From: Bacteroidaceae bacterium
GTDB taxonomy: Bacteria > Bacteroidota > Bacteroidia > Bacteroidales > Bacteroidaceae
Assembly: GCA_017650045.1 (NCBI GenBank)
Contig: JAGCFP010000048.1
Location: 1-46,791 of the forward strand
Direction of reading: 5' to 3'
Length of the DNA: 46,791 bases
The translations under genes were made by a program, and so were the position numbers. The notes under the pieces are model-generated. The model was not told where the DNA came from, made no database searches, and saw only the letters and a program-made list of their open reading frames with translations. This document shows positions 17,160 to 31,488 of the stretch, in pieces (positions within the stretch are counted from its first letter, which is position 1; each line of letters opens with the position of its first letter).

Positions 17160-18572
17160 TTAAAGCGTATTCTGTTTCAAACTCTCCACAAATTTGTCGA
17201 TGCGCTGCATCTCACCAGGAATGTCGATGCGTTGCGGACAATTGGGTGAGCATTGGTTGCAACCCGTGCAATGGCTGGCTTGGCGCAACTTAGGTACAGA
17301 ACGGTCATAACCCACCAAGAAGGCACGACGCATCTTGCGGTATTCAGGGTCGCCCTGACTCTCGGGCAGATTGCCATCGTTTACACATTTATTATAATGC
17401 AGCAGCGTACCGGGGATGTCGAGCCCGTAAGGACAAGGCATGCAATACTGGCAGTTGTTGCATTGGATGATAGGATACTTGATAAGCAACTGGGTGGTCT
17501 CTTCCAGAAAGTCGAACTCTTCTTCATTCAGCGGCACCAATGGCGAGAACGAGCGCACGTTGTCTTCCAGGTGCTCCATATAGGTCATGCCACTCAGCAC
17601 ACTCATCACGTGCTCATGCGAGCCTACCCAACGGAAAGCCCATGAGGCCACGCTATTCTCAGGATTGCGCTGCTTGAGGCGCTGCACCAAGTGTACGGGC
17701 AGATTGGACAGGCGTCCGCCTAATAACGGCTCCATAATCACGATGGGGATATTGCGCTCGGCCAGCATGTTGTACATGATTTCTCCCTGAACAGCATTCA
17801 GTCCTTGTGGATAATGCCAATCCTGATAATTCATCTGAATCTGTACGAAGTCCCAATGAGCATCGCCCTTATCGTGCATCTCCATCAGATACTCCAGCAC
17901 CTCAATGTCGCCATGATAAGAGAAGCCCATGTTGCGGATGCGTCCAGCTTCCTTCTCTTTCATCAGAAACTCGTGCATGCCGATGTCCAAGTACTTGGCA
18001 CGCAGGTTGTCCATACCCGTCACGCCACCAGGGCCGAAGCCGCCGAGACCTGCGCCATGAATCAGATAGTAGTCCAGATAATCTACCTGCAGTTCCTTGA
18101 ACGAATTATAGTAGCCAGCACGAGCCACATTGGGGTCGTTGCCGTTGGCATCCAGGAAGGTGGACATCTTGGTGGCGATATAGTAGCTCTCACGTGGGTG
18201 GCGCTTCAAGGCGATACCTGTGGCACGCTCAGACTGTCCACGGCCATAGTGAGGCGATGTGTCGAAGTAGTTCACACCATGCTCCAAGGCATAGTCCACC
18301 AGACGGTTCACCTGCTCTTGGTCTATGATTTCTCCTTGTCCGTTGGGATTCGGAATCATCGGCCAGCGCATGCAGCCATAACCCAAAAGGGAAACCTTGT
18401 CGCCCGTATTGGGATTGGTACGGTATGTCATCTGCCCTGTGGGTACAGGGGTGGTATAATGTCCGGCTGGATCAGAGTCAGCCGCTTTCTTGGGTGCACA
18501 ACTGGCTACTGCTGCTCCAGCAGCTCCCACACTCAAGGTCTTGAGAAAACTTCTTCTATCTATTTTATTCAT
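17160..18572 (-). CDS. Tat-exported aldo/keto reductase with two 4Fe-4S motifs
   Basis: A 470-residue protein of the AKR family that carries a ferredoxin-like tail (COG1453 type). The N terminus is a Tat signal (RRSFLK at 6-11) ending in a lipobox-like VASC (Cys25), so the folded, cofactor-loaded enzyme should be exported and possibly lipid-anchored. The AKR barrel keeps the catalytic set Asp104, Tyr109, Lys135, His172. The tail has two CxxCxxCxxxC-like motifs, Cys371/374/377/380 and Cys435/438/441/445. The gene follows a membrane polyferredoxin after 98 bases with no recognisable promoter between them, so I infer co-transcription and electron delivery from it. NAD(P)H is not expected in the periplasm. 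The true substrate is unknown. Confidence 0.88.
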   Translation of the reverse strand: MNKIDRRSFLKTLSVGAAGAAVASCAPKKAADSDPAGHYTTPVPTGQMTYRTNPNTGDKVSLLGYGCMRWPMIPNPNGQGEIIDQEQVNRLVDYALEHGVNYFDTSPHYGRGQSERATGIALKRHPRESYYIATKMSTFLDANGNDPNVARAGYYNSFKELQVDYLDYYLIHGAGLGGFGPGGVTGMDNLRAKYLDIGMHEFLMKEKEAGRIRNMGFSYHGDIEVLEYLMEMHDKGDAHWDFVQIQMNYQDWHYPQGLNAVQGEIMYNMLAERNIPIVIMEPLLGGRLSNLPVHLVQRLKQRNPENSVASWAFRWVGSHEHVMSVLSGMTYMEHLEDNVRSFSPLVPLNEEEFDFLEETTQLLIKYPIIQCNNCQYCMPCPYGLDIPGTLLHYNKCVNDGNLPESQGDPEYRKMRRAFLVGYDRSVPKLRQASHCTGCNQCSPNCPQRIDIPGEMQRIDKFVESLKQNTL

Positions 18573-18589
18573 AATAGTATCTGTTTTTT

Positions 18590-18660
18590 TACAGGATTAA
18601 CAGGATTAAAATGATTATAAATGTTATAATAAAATCCTGTTAATCCTCTTAATCCTGTGA
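18590..18660. repeat. Inverted repeat between polyferredoxin and AKR genes
   Basis: ACAGGATTAACAGGATTAA on the left is complementary to TTAATCC and AATCCTGT units on the right (ATCCTGTTAATCC, TTAATCCTGT). It can form a long stem in the mRNA between the two genes and could protect the upstream message or weaken expression of the second gene. Confidence 0.7.
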
Positions 18661-18670
18661 AATAAATTAA

Positions 18671-20245
18671 TCATATAACACGGTGAACTTCATGCCCTTC
18701 CACGTAGATGGCGCTCAGCGGACGACTTGGGCAAAGGGCCTCGCACATGCCGCAACCGATACACATCTCCTCATTCACCACAGGAATCTTCTTCGACTTA
18801 GGGTCGTTGGCATCGATGGGGACCATCGTGATGGCGCTCGTAGGACAATGACGCTCGCAGTTGCCGCAGTCCTTGTCGTCACGTATGACAATACAGAGCT
18901 CACGTGTCCATACGGCATGGCCTATCTGGATAGAGCTCTTCTCCTCCTTCGTGATAGGCATGATGGCACCAGCAGGACAGACACTCGAACACTCGATGCA
19001 CTCTGGGCGGCAATAGCCGCGCTCATAACTCATCTCTGGCTGCATGAAGGTCATCAGGCTGGTCGAAGGACGGAGCACACCATTAGGGCAAGCGGATACG
19101 CACAACTGGCAGGCCGTACAATGGTTCTTCATGTTGCGGGCACTCAAGGAACCCGGAAGGGTCAGAGCCGTGGCGCGTACGGGCTTCTCTTTCTCTACGA
19201 TATCGGCCAGACCACCATCCACTTTCTTATCAGTTGCCTCCTCGATAATCTGTGCCTTGGCCATCTTGGCAGTAGCCCCAATGGCGATGGCAGAGAAGAT
19301 GGCACGAAGTGTTGGATCTGAAGGTTTGCCTTCAGCCTTAGACGCAGGCTTAGCTGCCTTTGGAGCTGCAGCAACAGCCTCTGCCTTCTTTGGGAAGGCC
19401 GTAGCAAGTGAAGGTACTGCAAACTTGTAGTGCAGCGCATCGAACTTGCACTTCTCCAGACAGTTGCCACAGGTCACGCAGCGACTGTAATCCACCTGAT
19501 GGTTCTTGAAGTCTATGGCACTCGCCTTGCAGTTGCGTGAGCACATGCTGCAGTTCTTACACTTGTCCTCATCGAAGGTGATGTGGAAGAAACTGAAACG
19601 AGAGATGAAGCCAAGCACCGTTCCCACAGGACAAATGGTGTTACAGTAGGTACGCCCGTTCTTGTAGGCCAGATAACCCACAATCAGAAGGGTTGCCAGC
19701 GCGATGATAAAGGTTGGCAGCGACTTCATCCACACGTCTGTATCATAGAACGCATAGCTTTCATAATGTTCAGCGATGGAAGCCAAAAGGTTGTTGCCCC
19801 AGCGATAGAACGGCTGCAGGATGTTACTCGCGATGCGACCATAGCTGCTGTACGGAGCCAGCAAAGCCACAAACGAGCCCACGCCGCCGATGATGGCTAA
19901 GATGAACACGCCCAGTACTGAGTAACGAAGCACGCTCTTGGCAGGCGAGTAGGTGTAAGGAGTCTTTTGTTCCTTCTTCGGACGGGTCTTCTTGCCTATC
20001 CACGCAATGATGTCCTGCATCACACCCATCGGGCAGATGACCGAACAATAGATGCGGCCGAAGAGAAGCGTCAGCAAGATAAGGAAAAGGATTACGCCCA
20101 CGTTCAAGGCCAGAAGCGCAGGCAGGAATTGAATCTTGGCCATCCAGCCGAACCACAGGTGCAGCGTCCCGGTAAAGTCCATGAACAGCAACGTGATCAG
20201 CACAAAGAAAATGACGGCCAGCGTCAGTCTGATTTTACGTAACAT
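18671..20245 (-). CDS. Membrane-bound polyferredoxin (NapH/NosR-like)
   Basis: A 524-residue protein. The first about 210 residues hold four or five membrane helices and two CxxxCP motifs (YCSVICPMG, YCNTICPVG), the signature of NapH/NosR/RdxA-type quinol-linked proteins. A series of ferredoxin-type clusters follows: CKNCSMCSRNC, CVTCGNCLEKC, CTACQLCVSAC, CIECSSVC, CGNCERHC and CIGCGMCEALC. An Ala/Lys-rich linker (about 285-310) divides the cluster sets. Proteins of this plan pass electrons from the quinone pool or cytoplasmic donors to a periplasmic reductase. The gene just downstream encodes a Tat-exported Fe-S aldo/keto reductase, the obvious partner. Upstream is an exported NTF2-like protein on the same strand. 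Confidence 0.88.
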   Translation of the reverse strand: MLRKIRLTLAVIFFVLITLLFMDFTGTLHLWFGWMAKIQFLPALLALNVGVILFLILLTLLFGRIYCSVICPMGVMQDIIAWIGKKTRPKKEQKTPYTYSPAKSVLRYSVLGVFILAIIGGVGSFVALLAPYSSYGRIASNILQPFYRWGNNLLASIAEHYESYAFYDTDVWMKSLPTFIIALATLLIVGYLAYKNGRTYCNTICPVGTVLGFISRFSFFHITFDEDKCKNCSMCSRNCKASAIDFKNHQVDYSRCVTCGNCLEKCKFDALHYKFAVPSLATAFPKKAEAVAAAPKAAKPASKAEGKPSDPTLRAIFSAIAIGATAKMAKAQIIEEATDKKVDGGLADIVEKEKPVRATALTLPGSLSARNMKNHCTACQLCVSACPNGVLRPSTSLMTFMQPEMSYERGYCRPECIECSSVCPAGAIMPITKEEKSSIQIGHAVWTRELCIVIRDDKDCGNCERHCPTSAITMVPIDANDPKSKKIPVVNEEMCIGCGMCEALCPSRPLSAIYVEGHEVHRVI

Positions 20246-20417: not shown

Positions 20418-20891
20418 TTACTCGTTGAAGAGTATGTACTGGTCGCGTTCTACGATCCACCAGCGACCGTCGATCTTCTCATACTTGTCGAAATAACGCA
20501 GATACATGTGGCTAGCATTCCCGTTGCTTACCATCAGGGCGGTGAGGTAAACCCATCCGCTGGCATGGGTACTGTCGGCAAATTCAAGCACCTGCTGACC
20601 CGTCTGGTGGAAAGAAATGTCAACAGCTCCGGCACGCTTATAAATGTTGATCATGTTGTCAACGCCATTGATTTCGTTCACATTGTCGCCTACATGAATG
20701 CGCAGTCTCAGGTCTTTGGCAAAGATCTCGCTATAGTTTTCCTGTTTGAACTGGTCGCTCTCAAGGGCATAACGATCTACAAGCGCACGGATTTGGATGC
20801 GGTCACTCATTTCTTGTGCAGAAATTGGCTGTTGTGCATAGATGCCTGTAACCATGGCAAGCATCATCATCATTACAAATAACTTTTTCAT
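20418..20891 (-). CDS. Exported NTF2/SnoaL-like protein
   Basis: A 157-residue protein with a Sec signal (MKKLFVMMMMLAMVTGIYA, about 19 residues) and a SnoaL/NTF2-like alpha+beta barrel: an initial helix IRALVDRYALESDQ, then FAKDLRLRIHVGDNV, and the closing WWIVERDQYILFNE strand. The fold binds small hydrophobic molecules and occurs both in enzymes (isomerases, hydratases) and in non-catalytic proteins. It lies 26 bases after an acetyltransferase gene and 172 bases before the polyferredoxin gene, all on one strand, and may supply or bind the substrate of the exported redox enzymes. Catalytic residues could not be assigned. Confidence 0.8.
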   Translation of the reverse strand: MKKLFVMMMMLAMVTGIYAQQPISAQEMSDRIQIRALVDRYALESDQFKQENYSEIFAKDLRLRIHVGDNVNEINGVDNMINIYKRAGAVDISFHQTGQQVLEFADSTHASGWVYLTALMVSNGNASHMYLRYFDKYEKIDGRWWIVERDQYILFNE

Positions 20892-24961: not shown

Positions 24962-25888
24962 ATGAAAAAGATTTTATTTACATTATTTACCATTTTATGT
25001 GTGACAACTATGAACGCTCAGCATAATCAAACATATCTTACACTAAATAACGGGGTACAAATGCCTCAGTTTGGCCTCGGAGTCTATAGCATCCCTGCAG
25101 GCGACATGACCTACAACTCTGTACTGACAGCCCTGCAGAGCGGCTACCGCCACATCGACACAGCCCACGCCTATCAGAACGAAGCCAACGTGGGACAGGC
25201 CATCAGGGAAAGTGGCATAGCTCGCGACTCTATCTGGGTCACCAGCAAGCTCTGGCCCAATGAATATGGTGAAGGCAAGACGTTGAAGGCCATCGACAGG
25301 ATGTTGGGGCGCTTGGGACTCGACTACGTTGACCTCGTATATTTCCACCAGCCTATTGGCGACTATGTGGGTGGCTGGAAAGAGATGGAGAAAGCCCTCG
25401 AAACCGGCAAGGTGCGTGCCATCGGCATTTCTAATTTCGATGTGAACGACTCCATCTGGAACTCCCTCGTCGAGACAGCCCGCATCAAGCCGCAAATCGT
25501 GCAGATAGAGTGTCATCCTTATGCCCAGCGCAAGCATTGGCAAGAGATGGCCAAGAAGCACGACATCAAGATAGAGTGCTGGTTCCCACTTGGCGGACGC
25601 GACTCGAAAGGCGAAATCCTGCGCGACCCTGTCATCAACCAGATAGCTCAGGCGCATGGAATGACAGCTGCCCAGGTCATCATCCGCTGGCACCTGCAAG
25701 AAGGCTTCTCAGTAATCCCCGGCTCCACTAATCCTGCTCATATACGTGAGAATATCGGGGCCTTCGACTTTGCCCTTACGGATGCCGAAATGCAACAGAT
25801 TCGCTCACTCGACCGTGAAGCCCGTTACTTCAACATGTCTTATGAAGACCAGAAGAGGTGGTTCGGCCAATGGAACCCGACCGACTGA
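24962..25888 (+). CDS. Aldo/keto reductase with Sec signal peptide
   Basis: A 308-residue AKR. The catalytic tetrad is complete: Asp66, Tyr71 (HIDTAHAYQNE), Lys96 (WVTSKLW), His129 (YFHQP). The C terminus has the coenzyme segment VIPGSTNPAHIRENI. Ahead of the barrel is MKKILFTLFTILCVTTMNAQ, a good Sec signal with cleavage after about residue 19, so the enzyme is predicted to be exported. That is odd for an NAD(P)H-dependent family, since the cofactor is not available in the periplasm. It is translated directly after the SDR gene. It resembles 2,5-diketogluconate reductase-type members. Confidence 0.88.
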   Translation: MKKILFTLFTILCVTTMNAQHNQTYLTLNNGVQMPQFGLGVYSIPAGDMTYNSVLTALQSGYRHIDTAHAYQNEANVGQAIRESGIARDSIWVTSKLWPNEYGEGKTLKAIDRMLGRLGLDYVDLVYFHQPIGDYVGGWKEMEKALETGKVRAIGISNFDVNDSIWNSLVETARIKPQIVQIECHPYAQRKHWQEMAKKHDIKIECWFPLGGRDSKGEILRDPVINQIAQAHGMTAAQVIIRWHLQEGFSVIPGSTNPAHIRENIGAFDFALTDAEMQQIRSLDREARYFNMSYEDQKRWFGQWNPTD

Positions 25889-29260: not shown

Positions 29261-30199
29261 TCAGACAAATTCTGCGTTCATCAGGTAGGCTGCACTCTCA
29301 CGCAGACGCTCTGTCTGATGTCCGCTACGGGCATTCTCATCTTCCACGTAAAAGTCTGCATAGCCATTGGCGTGGAACTGACGGAAGATGCGCTCATAGT
29401 TCAGCATGCCACTCTGTCCCAAGGCTGCATAATCACGCACATGCAAGAGATGGAAACGCTGCGGATAACGTTGCAGATATTCCACAGGATCGTTGAAACC
29501 TTGCACAGCAGCCATGCAGTCGTACTCGAAGGTCACCAACGCTGGATCTGTCTCTTCAAGCAGCACATCCATAATCTGTCTGCTGCCCTCTGGATAGCGT
29601 CCTTCCAACAAGTAGAGGCTCTGTTCGCCTCCAGGTGCCACACGGTAGCAGAAGCCTGCATCGTTGTGCAGTCCCCACTCGATGCCTGCGGCTTTAGACA
29701 GTTGTCCCACTTCATTGAAGAGGGCTGCCACATGCTGTGTTTCCTCTAAGCTACGACACTGAGGCAGTGCTGGCTGTATGAGATACTTCACATCAAGCTT
29801 CACATGGTCGTCCAACGTCTTTTTCCAGAAATCCAGGAGTTCGGACTTATTGTCTTCTGTATAGGCGCGTAGGGATGGGCGCACGTGTGAGCTGCTTATG
29901 GTGAGTCCGGCTTCTTCGGCCATGCGACGGTATTCCATGATGTCTATGGGGGCGGCAAACATGCCCACCTTACCTTCACGATAGCCAGCCAACTCGAGGG
30001 TGCTATAGCCCATTTCTTTCACGGTGCGGAAGCCATTGGGGAGGTCGTTCTCCAACTCTGGGCCCATGCCATAGATTTGCAATCCGAAGTATTTAGATGC
30101 TTTCGCTGCGGATTCTTTGGGCTCTGGAGTACATGAGGATGCCATCACACCCATCATGGCCGCAGATACTGTTTTCAAAAAGTCTCTTCTTGTCATCAT
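29261..30199 (-). CDS. Exported sugar phosphate isomerase/epimerase-like TIM barrel 1
   Basis: A 312-residue AP-endonuclease-2-type TIM barrel (xylose isomerase-like). The start is a Tat-type signal (TRRDFLKT) with a lipobox-like ASSC. The barrel contains STLELAGYREGKVG, ISSSHVRPSL and EYDCMAAVQGFNDPVEYLQRYPQRFHLLHVRDY, with His/Glu/Asp residues in the usual metal-binding strands. The open frame extends to a TTG at 30226, but that lies inside the -7 box (TATTTTTG, 30224-30231), so the ATG at 30199 (or the adjacent one at 30196) is the start. Members act on sugars or inositols; export suggests a periplasmic sugar derivative. It is related in fold to the next gene upstream but has its own promoter. 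Confidence 0.85.
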   Translation of the reverse strand: MMTRRDFLKTVSAAMMGVMASSCTPEPKESAAKASKYFGLQIYGMGPELENDLPNGFRTVKEMGYSTLELAGYREGKVGMFAAPIDIMEYRRMAEEAGLTISSSHVRPSLRAYTEDNKSELLDFWKKTLDDHVKLDVKYLIQPALPQCRSLEETQHVAALFNEVGQLSKAAGIEWGLHNDAGFCYRVAPGGEQSLYLLEGRYPEGSRQIMDVLLEETDPALVTFEYDCMAAVQGFNDPVEYLQRYPQRFHLLHVRDYAALGQSGMLNYERIFRQFHANGYADFYVEDENARSGHQTERLRESAAYLMNAEFV

Positions 30200-30223
30200 A
30201 GCTTTATTGGTAAAAACTTGCAA

Positions 30224-30231
30224 CAAAAATA
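30224..30231 (-). promoter_or_regulatory. Promoter -7 box of TIM barrel 1
   Basis: TATTTTTG on the minus strand; it rules out the TTG start at 30226. Confidence 0.5.
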
Positions 30232-30373: not shown

Positions 30374-31441
30374 TCAACTGAGTTCCAGCACTTGACGGGC
30401 AAACTTCACGCAGGTGCCTACTTCCTTTACGGAGTCACTCCAAGGTGCTACAGCATACTCCAACTCGATGTCGCAGTAGATTTGCGGGTACTTGCTCTGC
30501 ACCAGCTTCAGAACGTCTGCCAGCGGTGTCTGACCCTGGCCCCAAACTTGGTTCTCATTTGGTGTGGCTGCGTCAGGACCTGTCTTATCTTTAGTGTGCA
30601 TAGAGAAGATACGGTCGTGGTACTTCTCGATGAAGTCGCATGGGTTCTTGCCAGTAGAGCCAAAGTAGTGCGCAAAGTCGAAGTTGAGCATCACATTTGG
30701 TGATACGGCCAGCACCTCTTCGGGGCCAGCGGCAAACTCTGGGGTGGCATACTGAAAGTGGTTGTGCATGCAGTAGTACATATCGTACTTCTCTGCAAAT
30801 GGTGCGCAACGCTTGGCGTTCTCTACAGACATCTCTGAGGTGACACCCTTGGCGCCCATGGCCTTGGCCAACTTGAAGGCGTATTCGATGTCTTCGTCGG
30901 AAGAAGCAGAGGTAGGCTGTGTCTTAACGATATGAATGTCGATGCCCAAGTCTTCGAAGCGCTTACGTACTTCCTCTACCTTGTTCATGTCAAGATTGTT
31001 GCGGAAGTCGCTATAGGCTTTCTGGAAATCGGCCAATTGCTTCTTCTCATCGTCTGTCATGACCTCCATGATACCTGCGCCACTGGACATGGCCCTGTTT
31101 CGCTGCTCCTCAGTGAGACGGGCGAATACGGATGCATAGAGACTCATCATAGGACTTTCTGGGGCTCCCAAAGCGGTCTCCAGGTCATTGCCCATCAGTT
31201 CCAGATTACTCACGCCTGCACGACGGCAGTAGTCTAAGAGGTTCTCGAGTCCGCCTGGCATGTCACGCCAACTGTAGGTGATGACACCTATATGTACACC
31301 ACCAAAATCAGAGTTCACTTTGCCATCTGCAGCCTTGGCTGTTGGCTTAGCAGCTTCACCAGCACAAGAGGCTAATGAAGGCATCAGTGCCATGCCTGCA
31401 AGGGCTGAGGCACCCATTCCAAAGAATTTTCTTCTGTTCAT
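30374..31441 (-). CDS. Exported sugar phosphate isomerase/epimerase-like TIM barrel 2
   Basis: A 355-residue protein: Tat-like signal NRRKFFGMG with a Cys in ASCAG, then an AP-endonuclease-2-type TIM barrel. Metal-site strands include VSNLELMG, MYYCMHNHFQY (His-Asn-His), VMLNFDFAHYFGSTG, FSMHTKDKTG and YCDIELEY. The frame is open to an ATG at 31483, but that codon overlaps the -7 box TATATTTG (31481-31488), so the start is the ATG at 31441 at the Tat signal. It is a family frequent in Bacteroidota, of uncertain substrate (keto-sugar or inositol derivatives). It is divergent from the UbiA gene. Confidence 0.87.
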   Translation of the reverse strand: MNRRKFFGMGASALAGMALMPSLASCAGEAAKPTAKAADGKVNSDFGGVHIGVITYSWRDMPGGLENLLDYCRRAGVSNLELMGNDLETALGAPESPMMSLYASVFARLTEEQRNRAMSSGAGIMEVMTDDEKKQLADFQKAYSDFRNNLDMNKVEEVRKRFEDLGIDIHIVKTQPTSASSDEDIEYAFKLAKAMGAKGVTSEMSVENAKRCAPFAEKYDMYYCMHNHFQYATPEFAAGPEEVLAVSPNVMLNFDFAHYFGSTGKNPCDFIEKYHDRIFSMHTKDKTGPDAATPNENQVWGQGQTPLADVLKLVQSKYPQIYCDIELEYAVAPWSDSVKEVGTCVKFARQVLELS

Positions 31442-31480
31442 TTTTTCAATAATTAAGTCATAAATCAATTTTTGGTATTG

Positions 31481-31488
31481 CAAATATA
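31481..31488 (-). promoter_or_regulatory. Promoter -7 box of TIM barrel 2
   Basis: TATATTTG on the minus strand; only 34 bases from the divergent plus-strand box at 31523. Confidence 0.6.

Follow-up and report, generated by a model that had tools for sequence, protein, structure and literature searches.

How could an aldo/keto reductase, which belongs to a group of enzymes regarded as soluble, cytoplasmic and NAD(P)H-using, operate outside the cytoplasm? The question is raised by a 46,791-nucleotide contig of a Bacteroidaceae bacterium (JAGCFP010000048.1 of assembly GCA_017650045.1, a draft genome 76.6% complete), analysed at its full length and hereafter called the window. On its reverse strand, a gene for an iron-sulfur (Fe-S) aldo/keto reductase (AKR) with a twin-arginine translocation (Tat) signal lies 98 bp downstream of a gene for a membrane polyferredoxin (PFD). 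Here, we show by sequence and comparative genomics, which cover linkage, motifs, export signals and apparent partner swapping, that this pair is recurrent in Bacteroidales, and we consider it likely to be a real, uncharacterised extracytoplasmic redox pair. On balance, we judge it probable that the two proteins form an extracytoplasmic electron-transfer pair, in which PFD wires a periplasmic, carbonyl/alcohol-converting AKR. Both genes lie where the initial annotation had placed them, and AKR carries the Asp-Tyr-Lys-His tetrad, the two four-cysteine Fe-S sets and the RRSFLK motif with Cys25 that it had described.

17160-18572 (-): AKR, predicted Tat-exported Fe-S aldo/keto reductase; open reading frame of 470 residues with PF00248, Fer4 and TIGR01409 matches and with relatives
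18671-20245 (-): PFD, membrane polyferredoxin, NapH-NapG-like fusion; open reading frame of 524 residues with TIGR02163 and TIGR00397 matches below cut-off and 28 invariant cysteines

Gene order supports a functional connection between the two proteins. Among 80 named loci, which are the best 80 of at least 581 confirmed relatives from genome contigs and therefore lean to close kin, PFD adjoins AKR in 77, with 74 in the PFD-AKR order of the window and three in the AKR-PFD order (median gap of 42 nt between BLAST ends). A stricter cut retained 76 of the 80, missing locus L099, where PFD is truncated by the contig end. Across 118 genomes of the same order, the window's own included, AKR (E ≤ 1e-60) occurred in 22, every one of which also encoded a PFD-like protein and 21 of which carried the adjacent pair (the exception being genome G238); counted by gene, 23 of 27 AKRs directly adjoined PFD. 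PFD-like proteins were present without AKR in 19 further genomes of this sample. A phylum-wide set of 198 genomes yielded AKR at the same threshold only in the window's own genome, and PFD-like proteins in nine, this genome included; the other phylum-wide rows shown belong to the same class or phylum and not to the same order, and the order sample was used instead. The conserved adjacency of a Tat-type AKR and a polyferredoxin, which the initial annotation had named as its test, was thus borne out in 77 of 80 loci. Therefore, the near-universal adjacency in the relatives examined suggests that AKR and PFD probably cooperate outside the cytoplasm.

The pair is also duplicated. A second PFD-AKR pair sits on contig C59 of the window's own genome (PFD 92% and AKR 66% identical to the window copies), and a third AKR, again 66% identical, on contig C47 without PFD. 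Codon differences between the window and C59 copies of PFD comprise 152 synonymous and 41 non-synonymous changes, and the duplicated PFD is under purifying selection. In a Parabacteroides distasonis record, the gene order is PFD-AKR-AKR-PFD. We also noticed AKR paralogues without an adjoining PFD beside a predicted exported esterase (L118, 8793-11162; L121, 7413-9773), which a Pfam scan of the L121 copy identified as BD-FAE.

The AKR sequence comprises an export signal, a catalytic barrel and a cluster domain.

18498-18572 (-): Tat signal peptide (RRSFLK, residues 6-11) with candidate lipoprotein Cys25; R6, R7 and C25 conserved
18057-18263 (-): stretch with the AKR tetrad D104, Y109, K135 and H172; invariant in 63 sequences
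17238-17462 (-): C-terminal two-cluster Fe-S domain, C371-C380 and C435-C445; cysteine positions invariant

The barrel matches PF00248 (E = 6.9e-38), 4Fe-4S (Fer4) domains are also matched in Pfam, and barrel homology together with the tetrad places the protein in the aldo/keto reductase superfamily. In alignment A2 (63 sequences, i.e., 62 relatives and the window), all four tetrad residues and all eight cluster cysteines are invariant. The second cluster set (C435/438/441/445) reads CxxCxxCxxxC, whereas the first (C371/374/377/380) reads CxxCxxCxxC, unlike the textbook CxxCxxCxxxC.

Several features point to export. The AKR N-terminus scores 21.4 bits against TIGR01409, above its cut-off of 16.7, and 22.1 against Pfam TAT_signal, just below its cut-off of 22.7; R6, R7 and C25 are at least 90% conserved in alignments A1 and A2, and the context of Cys25 appears lipobox-like by eye. 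The 80 named loci gave 79 usable AKRs and 72 full-length PFDs, with L060 excluded from both on account of undetermined bases. A twin-arginine N-terminus is present in 77 of the 79 AKRs, a cysteine follows within 30 residues in 75 of these 77, and a lipobox-like pattern occurs in 59/79. The sequence features of a Tat substrate and lipoprotein (twin arginine, hydrophobic stretch, lipobox cysteine) are thus all found, and the export signals reported in the initial annotation hold well beyond the window. TatC is encoded in the window's own genome and within the fetched flanks, whose lengths vary, of 27 of the 80 loci, often as the next gene. That the Tat-like start is incidental and AKR cytoplasmic is very improbable: the score just short of the Pfam cut-off would fit such a reading, and it is opposed by the twin arginine in 77/79 and following cysteine in 75/77 AKRs, the TIGR01409 score, the tatC linkage, and the four cytosolic kin fetched for the pocket comparison below, which begin without a Tat-like segment. 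Acidic residues after the lipobox cysteine are a signal for surface export. Only two of 75 AKRs hold two or more among the five residues after this cysteine, and therefore the periplasmic facing is favoured over an outer-surface location.

PFD offers a route by which electrons might reach such a protein.

20033-20047 (-): first CxxxCP motif (C67, C71; residues 67-71), membrane part; from cysteine positions and hydropathy
19631-19645 (-): second CxxxCP motif (C201, C205; residues 201-205), membrane part; from cysteine positions and hydropathy
19448-19561 (-): NapH-type 2x[4Fe-4S] motifs (C229-C266), predicted cytoplasmic by analogy with NapH
19244-19306 (-): hydrophobic segment inside the chain, containing R314, where relatives carry the internal twin arginine (here Leu-Arg)
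18731-19207 (-): NapG-like domain with four [4Fe-4S] motifs (C376-C505), predicted periplasmic; TIGR00397 match

The protein contains exactly 28 cysteines, of which the two CxxxCP motifs account for four and six four-cysteine [4Fe-4S] sets for the other 24, and all are invariant in alignment A3 (55 sequences, i.e., 54 relatives and the window). Its best stretch against TIGR02163 (NapH) spans residues 186-274 (80.5 bits, cut-off 213.05), and residues 347-505 match TIGR00397 (NapG; 57.4 bits, cut-off 178.85), so that PFD does not reach the NCBIfam cut-offs of the curated NapH and NapG families. The initial annotation had read a NapH/NosR-type plan. Its two CxxxCP motifs and six cluster motifs stand, as does NapH/NapG-type electron delivery in that both domain types are matched in one chain, whereas the protein is more than NapH-like: a NapH-like membrane part is fused to a NapG-like four-cluster part, the arrangement of a dual Sec-Tat polyferredoxin. 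This type is already known: Tooke et al. 2017 (PMC5449189) describe polyferredoxin Q1NSB0 of MLMS-1 as a NapH-NapG fusion needing both Sec and Tat, with a Tat-dependent segment of low hydrophobicity.

The linker between the two halves carries Arg-Arg in 60, Lys-Arg in 10 and Leu-Arg in three of 73 PFDs. The same Arg-Arg pattern outside the linker, over a far longer stretch, occurs in 12 of the 73. A hydrophobic stretch, by our own rule a mean hydropathy above 0.8 over 18 residues, follows 45 of the 60 Arg-Arg sites and six of the 10 Lys-Arg sites, the remainder being weaker; in the window PFD, hydropathy places a hydrophobic segment at residues 316-334, between the NapH and NapG halves. Given the internal twin arginine and the design described by Tooke et al., the NapG half should be placed on AKR's side of the membrane in most relatives, with the caveat of Leu-Arg in the window.

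Compared with the MLMS-1 polyferredoxin (PMC5449189), PFD shares the NapH-NapG fusion and four clusters predicted outside, and most relatives, though not the window copy, also have its twin arginine before the last transmembrane segment; the MLMS-1 protein has seven predicted clusters, three of them inside, and the window PFD has six and two CxxxCP motifs. The term 'aldo' has no occurrence in the main text of that paper. The NapGH quinol dehydrogenase of periplasmic nitrate reductase has the same order of cluster motifs and a like membrane part; it differs in consisting of separate proteins and feeding a molybdoenzyme, and PFD lies far below the curated NapGH cut-offs. Meheust et al. 2021 (PMC8238504) describe flavinylated NapH-like systems that resemble PFD as a modular wire for various extracytosolic oxidoreductases; 'aldo' likewise has no occurrence in that paper, and a Pfam scan of the window PFD, unlike those systems, gave no FMN-binding match. 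Neither PFD nor a neighbouring gene was found to encode an FMN-binding domain, ApbE not having been searched for. In the window's own genome, FMN_bind occurs at two places (C47, 44460-44726; C11, 8535-8822), and the contigs with PFD (C52 and C59) are without it. Among the matches listed from open-licence literature, we found none that describes a Tat-exported AKR partnered by such a PFD.

PFD is not restricted to AKR. We examined 24 loci with other PFDs, drawn from 26 fetched regions (the remaining two being AKR loci without PFD); they take in six of the eight other-genome PFD places of the phylum sample and part of the order-sample places.

L129-L154 (e.g., L139, 6690-9217): range that includes the loci with PFD and a DUF362 protein (21 of 24 examined); also L181, 5044-7581 (P. 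distasonis record)

A DUF362 protein lies within 170 bp of PFD in 21 of these 24 loci, its identity confirmed by Pfam in all four scanned, and many of these partners have a Tat-like start. The three other loci are L130; L141, which holds G238's unlinked PFD; and L136, where an AKR is accompanied by a Tat-type FMN_red protein. In a PFD tree of 67 rows (the window copy with its paralogue, 41 out of 72 usable named PFDs, taken at random apart from a few picked, and the 24 other-PFD loci; the root serves for drawing only), one branch (100/100) separates 43 AKR-paired from 21 DUF362-paired rows, with L136 just outside the AKR-paired set (96/95). The two kinds of pair share an identical wire type, many partners with a Tat-like start and a homologous ECF-S neighbour (13 of 80 AKR loci; L136, L148, L149), and differ in that DUF362 is unrelated to AKR; DUF362 and the lactate racemase family belong to one Pfam clan (PMC11770544). 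Judging from sequence, these observations suggest that one membrane wire serves two exported enzyme types, AKR or DUF362. They could also fit AKR as a redox sensor, or as a factor for maturing an envelope system that PFD and the Tat pathway operate, rather than a substrate-specific enzyme, since DUF362 can replace AKR as partner and the neighbours include TatC (27/80), DUF1893 (23/80) and ECF-S (13/80); we regard this as improbable given that all four catalytic residues are invariant in 63 sequences. Separately, the P. distasonis TSDC17.2 'plasmid' records (L180, L181) contain housekeeping genes, among them tgt and one for an ftsK-type translocase, and are possibly pieces of chromosome.

If AKR is exported, has its NADPH pocket decayed? 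We compared 45 exported sequences, 40 of which came from taking alternate entries of the 79 usable named AKRs, with five cytosolic relatives in one alignment. The tetrad is kept in 45/45 exported and 5/5 cytosolic sequences, and the cofactor-contact positions are almost identical in the two groups, the clearest differences being His334 (43/45 exported; Gln in 5/5 cytosolic) and Arg287 (42/45 against 0/5). There is thus no sign of a pocket degraded by export, and neither the export-specific decay that the initial annotation had proposed to look for nor NADPH independence finds support in this comparison. The Fe-S subfamily, cytosolic members included, presumably lacks the basic residues with which AKR1C holds the 2'-phosphate, by our own residue equivalences to AKR1C numbering, drawn from profile alignments and not from a structure. 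The best solved relative of the barrel is AKR11C1 (1ynp/1ynq; E = 4.9e-29 by profile), a chain of 317 residues whose match is confined to the barrel and includes neither Fe-S domain nor export signal. AKR11C1, of which 1ynq is the NADPH complex, seemingly also lacks basic 2'-phosphate residues at the aligned places, and their absence is therefore not decisive. Cytosolic AKRs with a C-terminal ferredoxin domain (COG1453 type) share the tetrad and most cofactor positions, and the two A2 members of this kind that are more distant also keep the cluster cysteines; the five compared differ in having no Tat signal, Gln and not His at 334, and a variable residue and not Arg at 287.

The same conservation would fit an AKR exported with tightly held NAD(P)(H), which it would recycle by coupling the oxidation of one substrate to the reduction of another, its Fe-S domain and PFD merely resetting or protecting it. 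Zymomonas glucose-fructose oxidoreductase is a precedent for export with tightly bound NAD(P)(H), and Tat exports folded, cofactor-loaded proteins. Such a role would leave both the strong linkage to PFD and the eight invariant cluster cysteines unexplained, and we consider it unlikely.

For cluster locations, docking, electron source, direction, cofactor and substrate, we infer the following chain. PFD would cross the inner membrane. Its NapH-type half, with about four helices, the two CxxxCP motifs and a pair of cytoplasmic clusters, would trade electrons with menaquinol or cytoplasmic ferredoxin, and its NapG-type half, placed after the internal twin arginine in most relatives, would hold four periplasmic clusters. 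AKR would fold and receive its Fe-S clusters before leaving the cytoplasm through Tat, Cys25 would probably serve as its lipoprotein anchor, and its two clusters would dock on the NapG-like half. Electrons would then pass from menaquinol or ferredoxin through the two cytoplasmic clusters, the CxxxCP pair, the four NapG-type clusters and the two AKR clusters to the barrel, which would interconvert carbonyl and alcohol in the periplasm. AKRs transfer hydrides and Fe-S clusters transfer single electrons, and therefore a two-electron cofactor is needed between clusters and barrel; the intermediary could be a nucleotide carried out in the barrel or, at some loci, the FMN of exported flavodoxins.

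Flavin proteins do occur next to the pair. At L115 and L176, a flavodoxin whose start looks signal-like by eye lies directly upstream of PFD-AKR; in L056 (Odoribacter lunatus), a signal-like flavodoxin, a Tat-type EFR1 flavodoxin-ferredoxin, PFD and AKR stand in succession; and at L136, the FMN_red protein lies between AKR and PFD. EFR1 flavodoxin-ferredoxins occur near AKR at L056 (5498-6451, with a Tat-type lipoprotein start), L126 (11798-12733) and L120 (3259-4191), and proteins of the L056 kind are rare, with one match (E ≤ 1e-40) in the 118 genomes besides those at L126 and L120. Exported flavodoxins may therefore be the missing two-electron step, i.e., a flavin relay. We also noticed, 5-7 kb from the pair in the window, a lipoprotein-like flavodoxin (PF12682; 26539-27195, -) and a DkgA-like AKR that begins with a Sec-type signal (24962-25888, +), the latter 54% identical to an exported-looking counterpart in L056, and in genome G321 two lipoprotein-like fusions of flavodoxin with an AKR of DkgA-like type (L162, 1489-2967, -; L173, 844-2301, +).

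Several observations weigh against a PFD-wired, periplasmic AKR. Three of the 80 named AKRs (L055, L076, L105) and four of the 27 AKR genes of the order sample (G000:C47, G238:C1, G297:C46 and G250:C26, the last about 1 kb from PFD) have no directly adjacent PFD. The window PFD itself, with those of L036 and L058, has Leu-Arg and no twin arginine at the internal site, in L058 despite a lysine-rich stretch. The Fe-S-domain AKR without a flavin leaves the hydride step unexplained, and flavodoxins are linked in a minority of loci (6/80); nor is this linkage specific, because flavodoxin-AKR neighbours also occur in four plasmid records from other, unrelated phyla, covering at least 80% of the fused query. 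Finally, with potentials of about -75 mV for menaquinone and about -200 mV for ordinary carbonyls, menaquinol is a poor donor for ordinary carbonyls, which leads to an activated carbonyl substrate, a ferredoxin donor or alcohol oxidation. The quinol- or ferredoxin-driven enzyme of the initial annotation hence survives in part: its quinol branch is awkward for ordinary carbonyls on these potentials, and ferredoxin or flavodoxin as donor, as well as oxidation, are live alternatives.

As to direction, reduction seems to us somewhat likelier than oxidation and would serve to clear reactive aldehydes or other activated carbonyls from the envelope. L056 also holds genes best matching PRK15138 (YqhD) and DkgA, both below cut-off; these two are aldehyde-response enzymes, and we lean slightly to reduction from this one locus. 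The chain might instead run in reverse, with AKR oxidising a periplasmic alcohol, sugar or hydroxylated compound and PFD handing the electrons to menaquinone, in likeness to quinoprotein alcohol oxidases that may use NapH-like proteins. Alcohol/carbonyl couples lie well below menaquinone, which would make this flow downhill, and AKRs favour reduction in NADPH-holding cells, which speaks the other way, as do the L056 matches, usually tied to aldehyde reduction, and the cytoplasmic clusters of PFD, which could accept low-potential electrons. TonB receptor (7/80) and ECF-S (13/80) neighbours fit the uptake of a compound to be oxidised, and NapH-like modules appear to serve oxidases as well as reductases, an ethanol oxidase included (PMC8238504). 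We consider this reversal less likely than not, and prefer the reductive direction by a small margin.

The wider surroundings of the pair give a few further hints. Its neighbours (e.g., L045, 9380-12251) include DUF1893 (23/80), an ECF-S-like protein (13/80) and a TonB receptor (7/80) closest to BtuB and scoring below the BtuB cut-off, which suggests uptake or cofactor traffic.

18573-18670 (-): stretch between PFD and AKR, with an inverted repeat at 18592-18657
20418-20891: SnoaL-like protein (PF13577), the 'NTF2-like' protein of the initial annotation, with a hydrophobic signal-like N-terminal stretch (by eye)
29261-30226 and 30374-31483 (-): adjoining xylose-isomerase-like TIM-barrel proteins (PF01261), each with a Tat-like start

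The 16-base arm of the inverted repeat occurs in the draft genome as one exact copy. The SnoaL-like protein had been suggested as substrate binder. A tblastn search (E ≤ 1e-3) over L001-L181 matched just the window's own copy (L031), and the candidate was rejected as a conserved partner; the loci with the closest AKRs (L002/L119, L003/L118) end at contig ends, leaving their upstream genes beyond view, and L036, with a 65% identical AKR, has no SnoaL match.

The pair is easy to overlook, because two named records annotate it merely as a '4Fe-4S binding protein' and an 'aldo/keto reductase'. It supplies a concrete partner for a polyferredoxin type previously studied for its biogenesis, the DUF362 pairing suggests that the wire is modular, and the pair is amenable to direct testing in cultured Bacteroides and Parabacteroides. 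A conserved pairing of an exported Fe-S AKR with a transmembrane wire, in 22 of the 118 genomes of the order sample, would allow carbonyl or alcohol groups of dietary, host or microbial compounds to be converted in the envelope, the electrons coming from quinone or ferredoxin. More tentatively, and with less than even confidence, gut Bacteroidota may carry out periplasmic AKR chemistry without cytoplasmic NAD(P)H, by means of a swappable NapH-NapG wire and, in some lineages, an exported flavodoxin. If true, a well-known NADPH enzyme superfamily would have been turned into a respiratory-chain enzyme.

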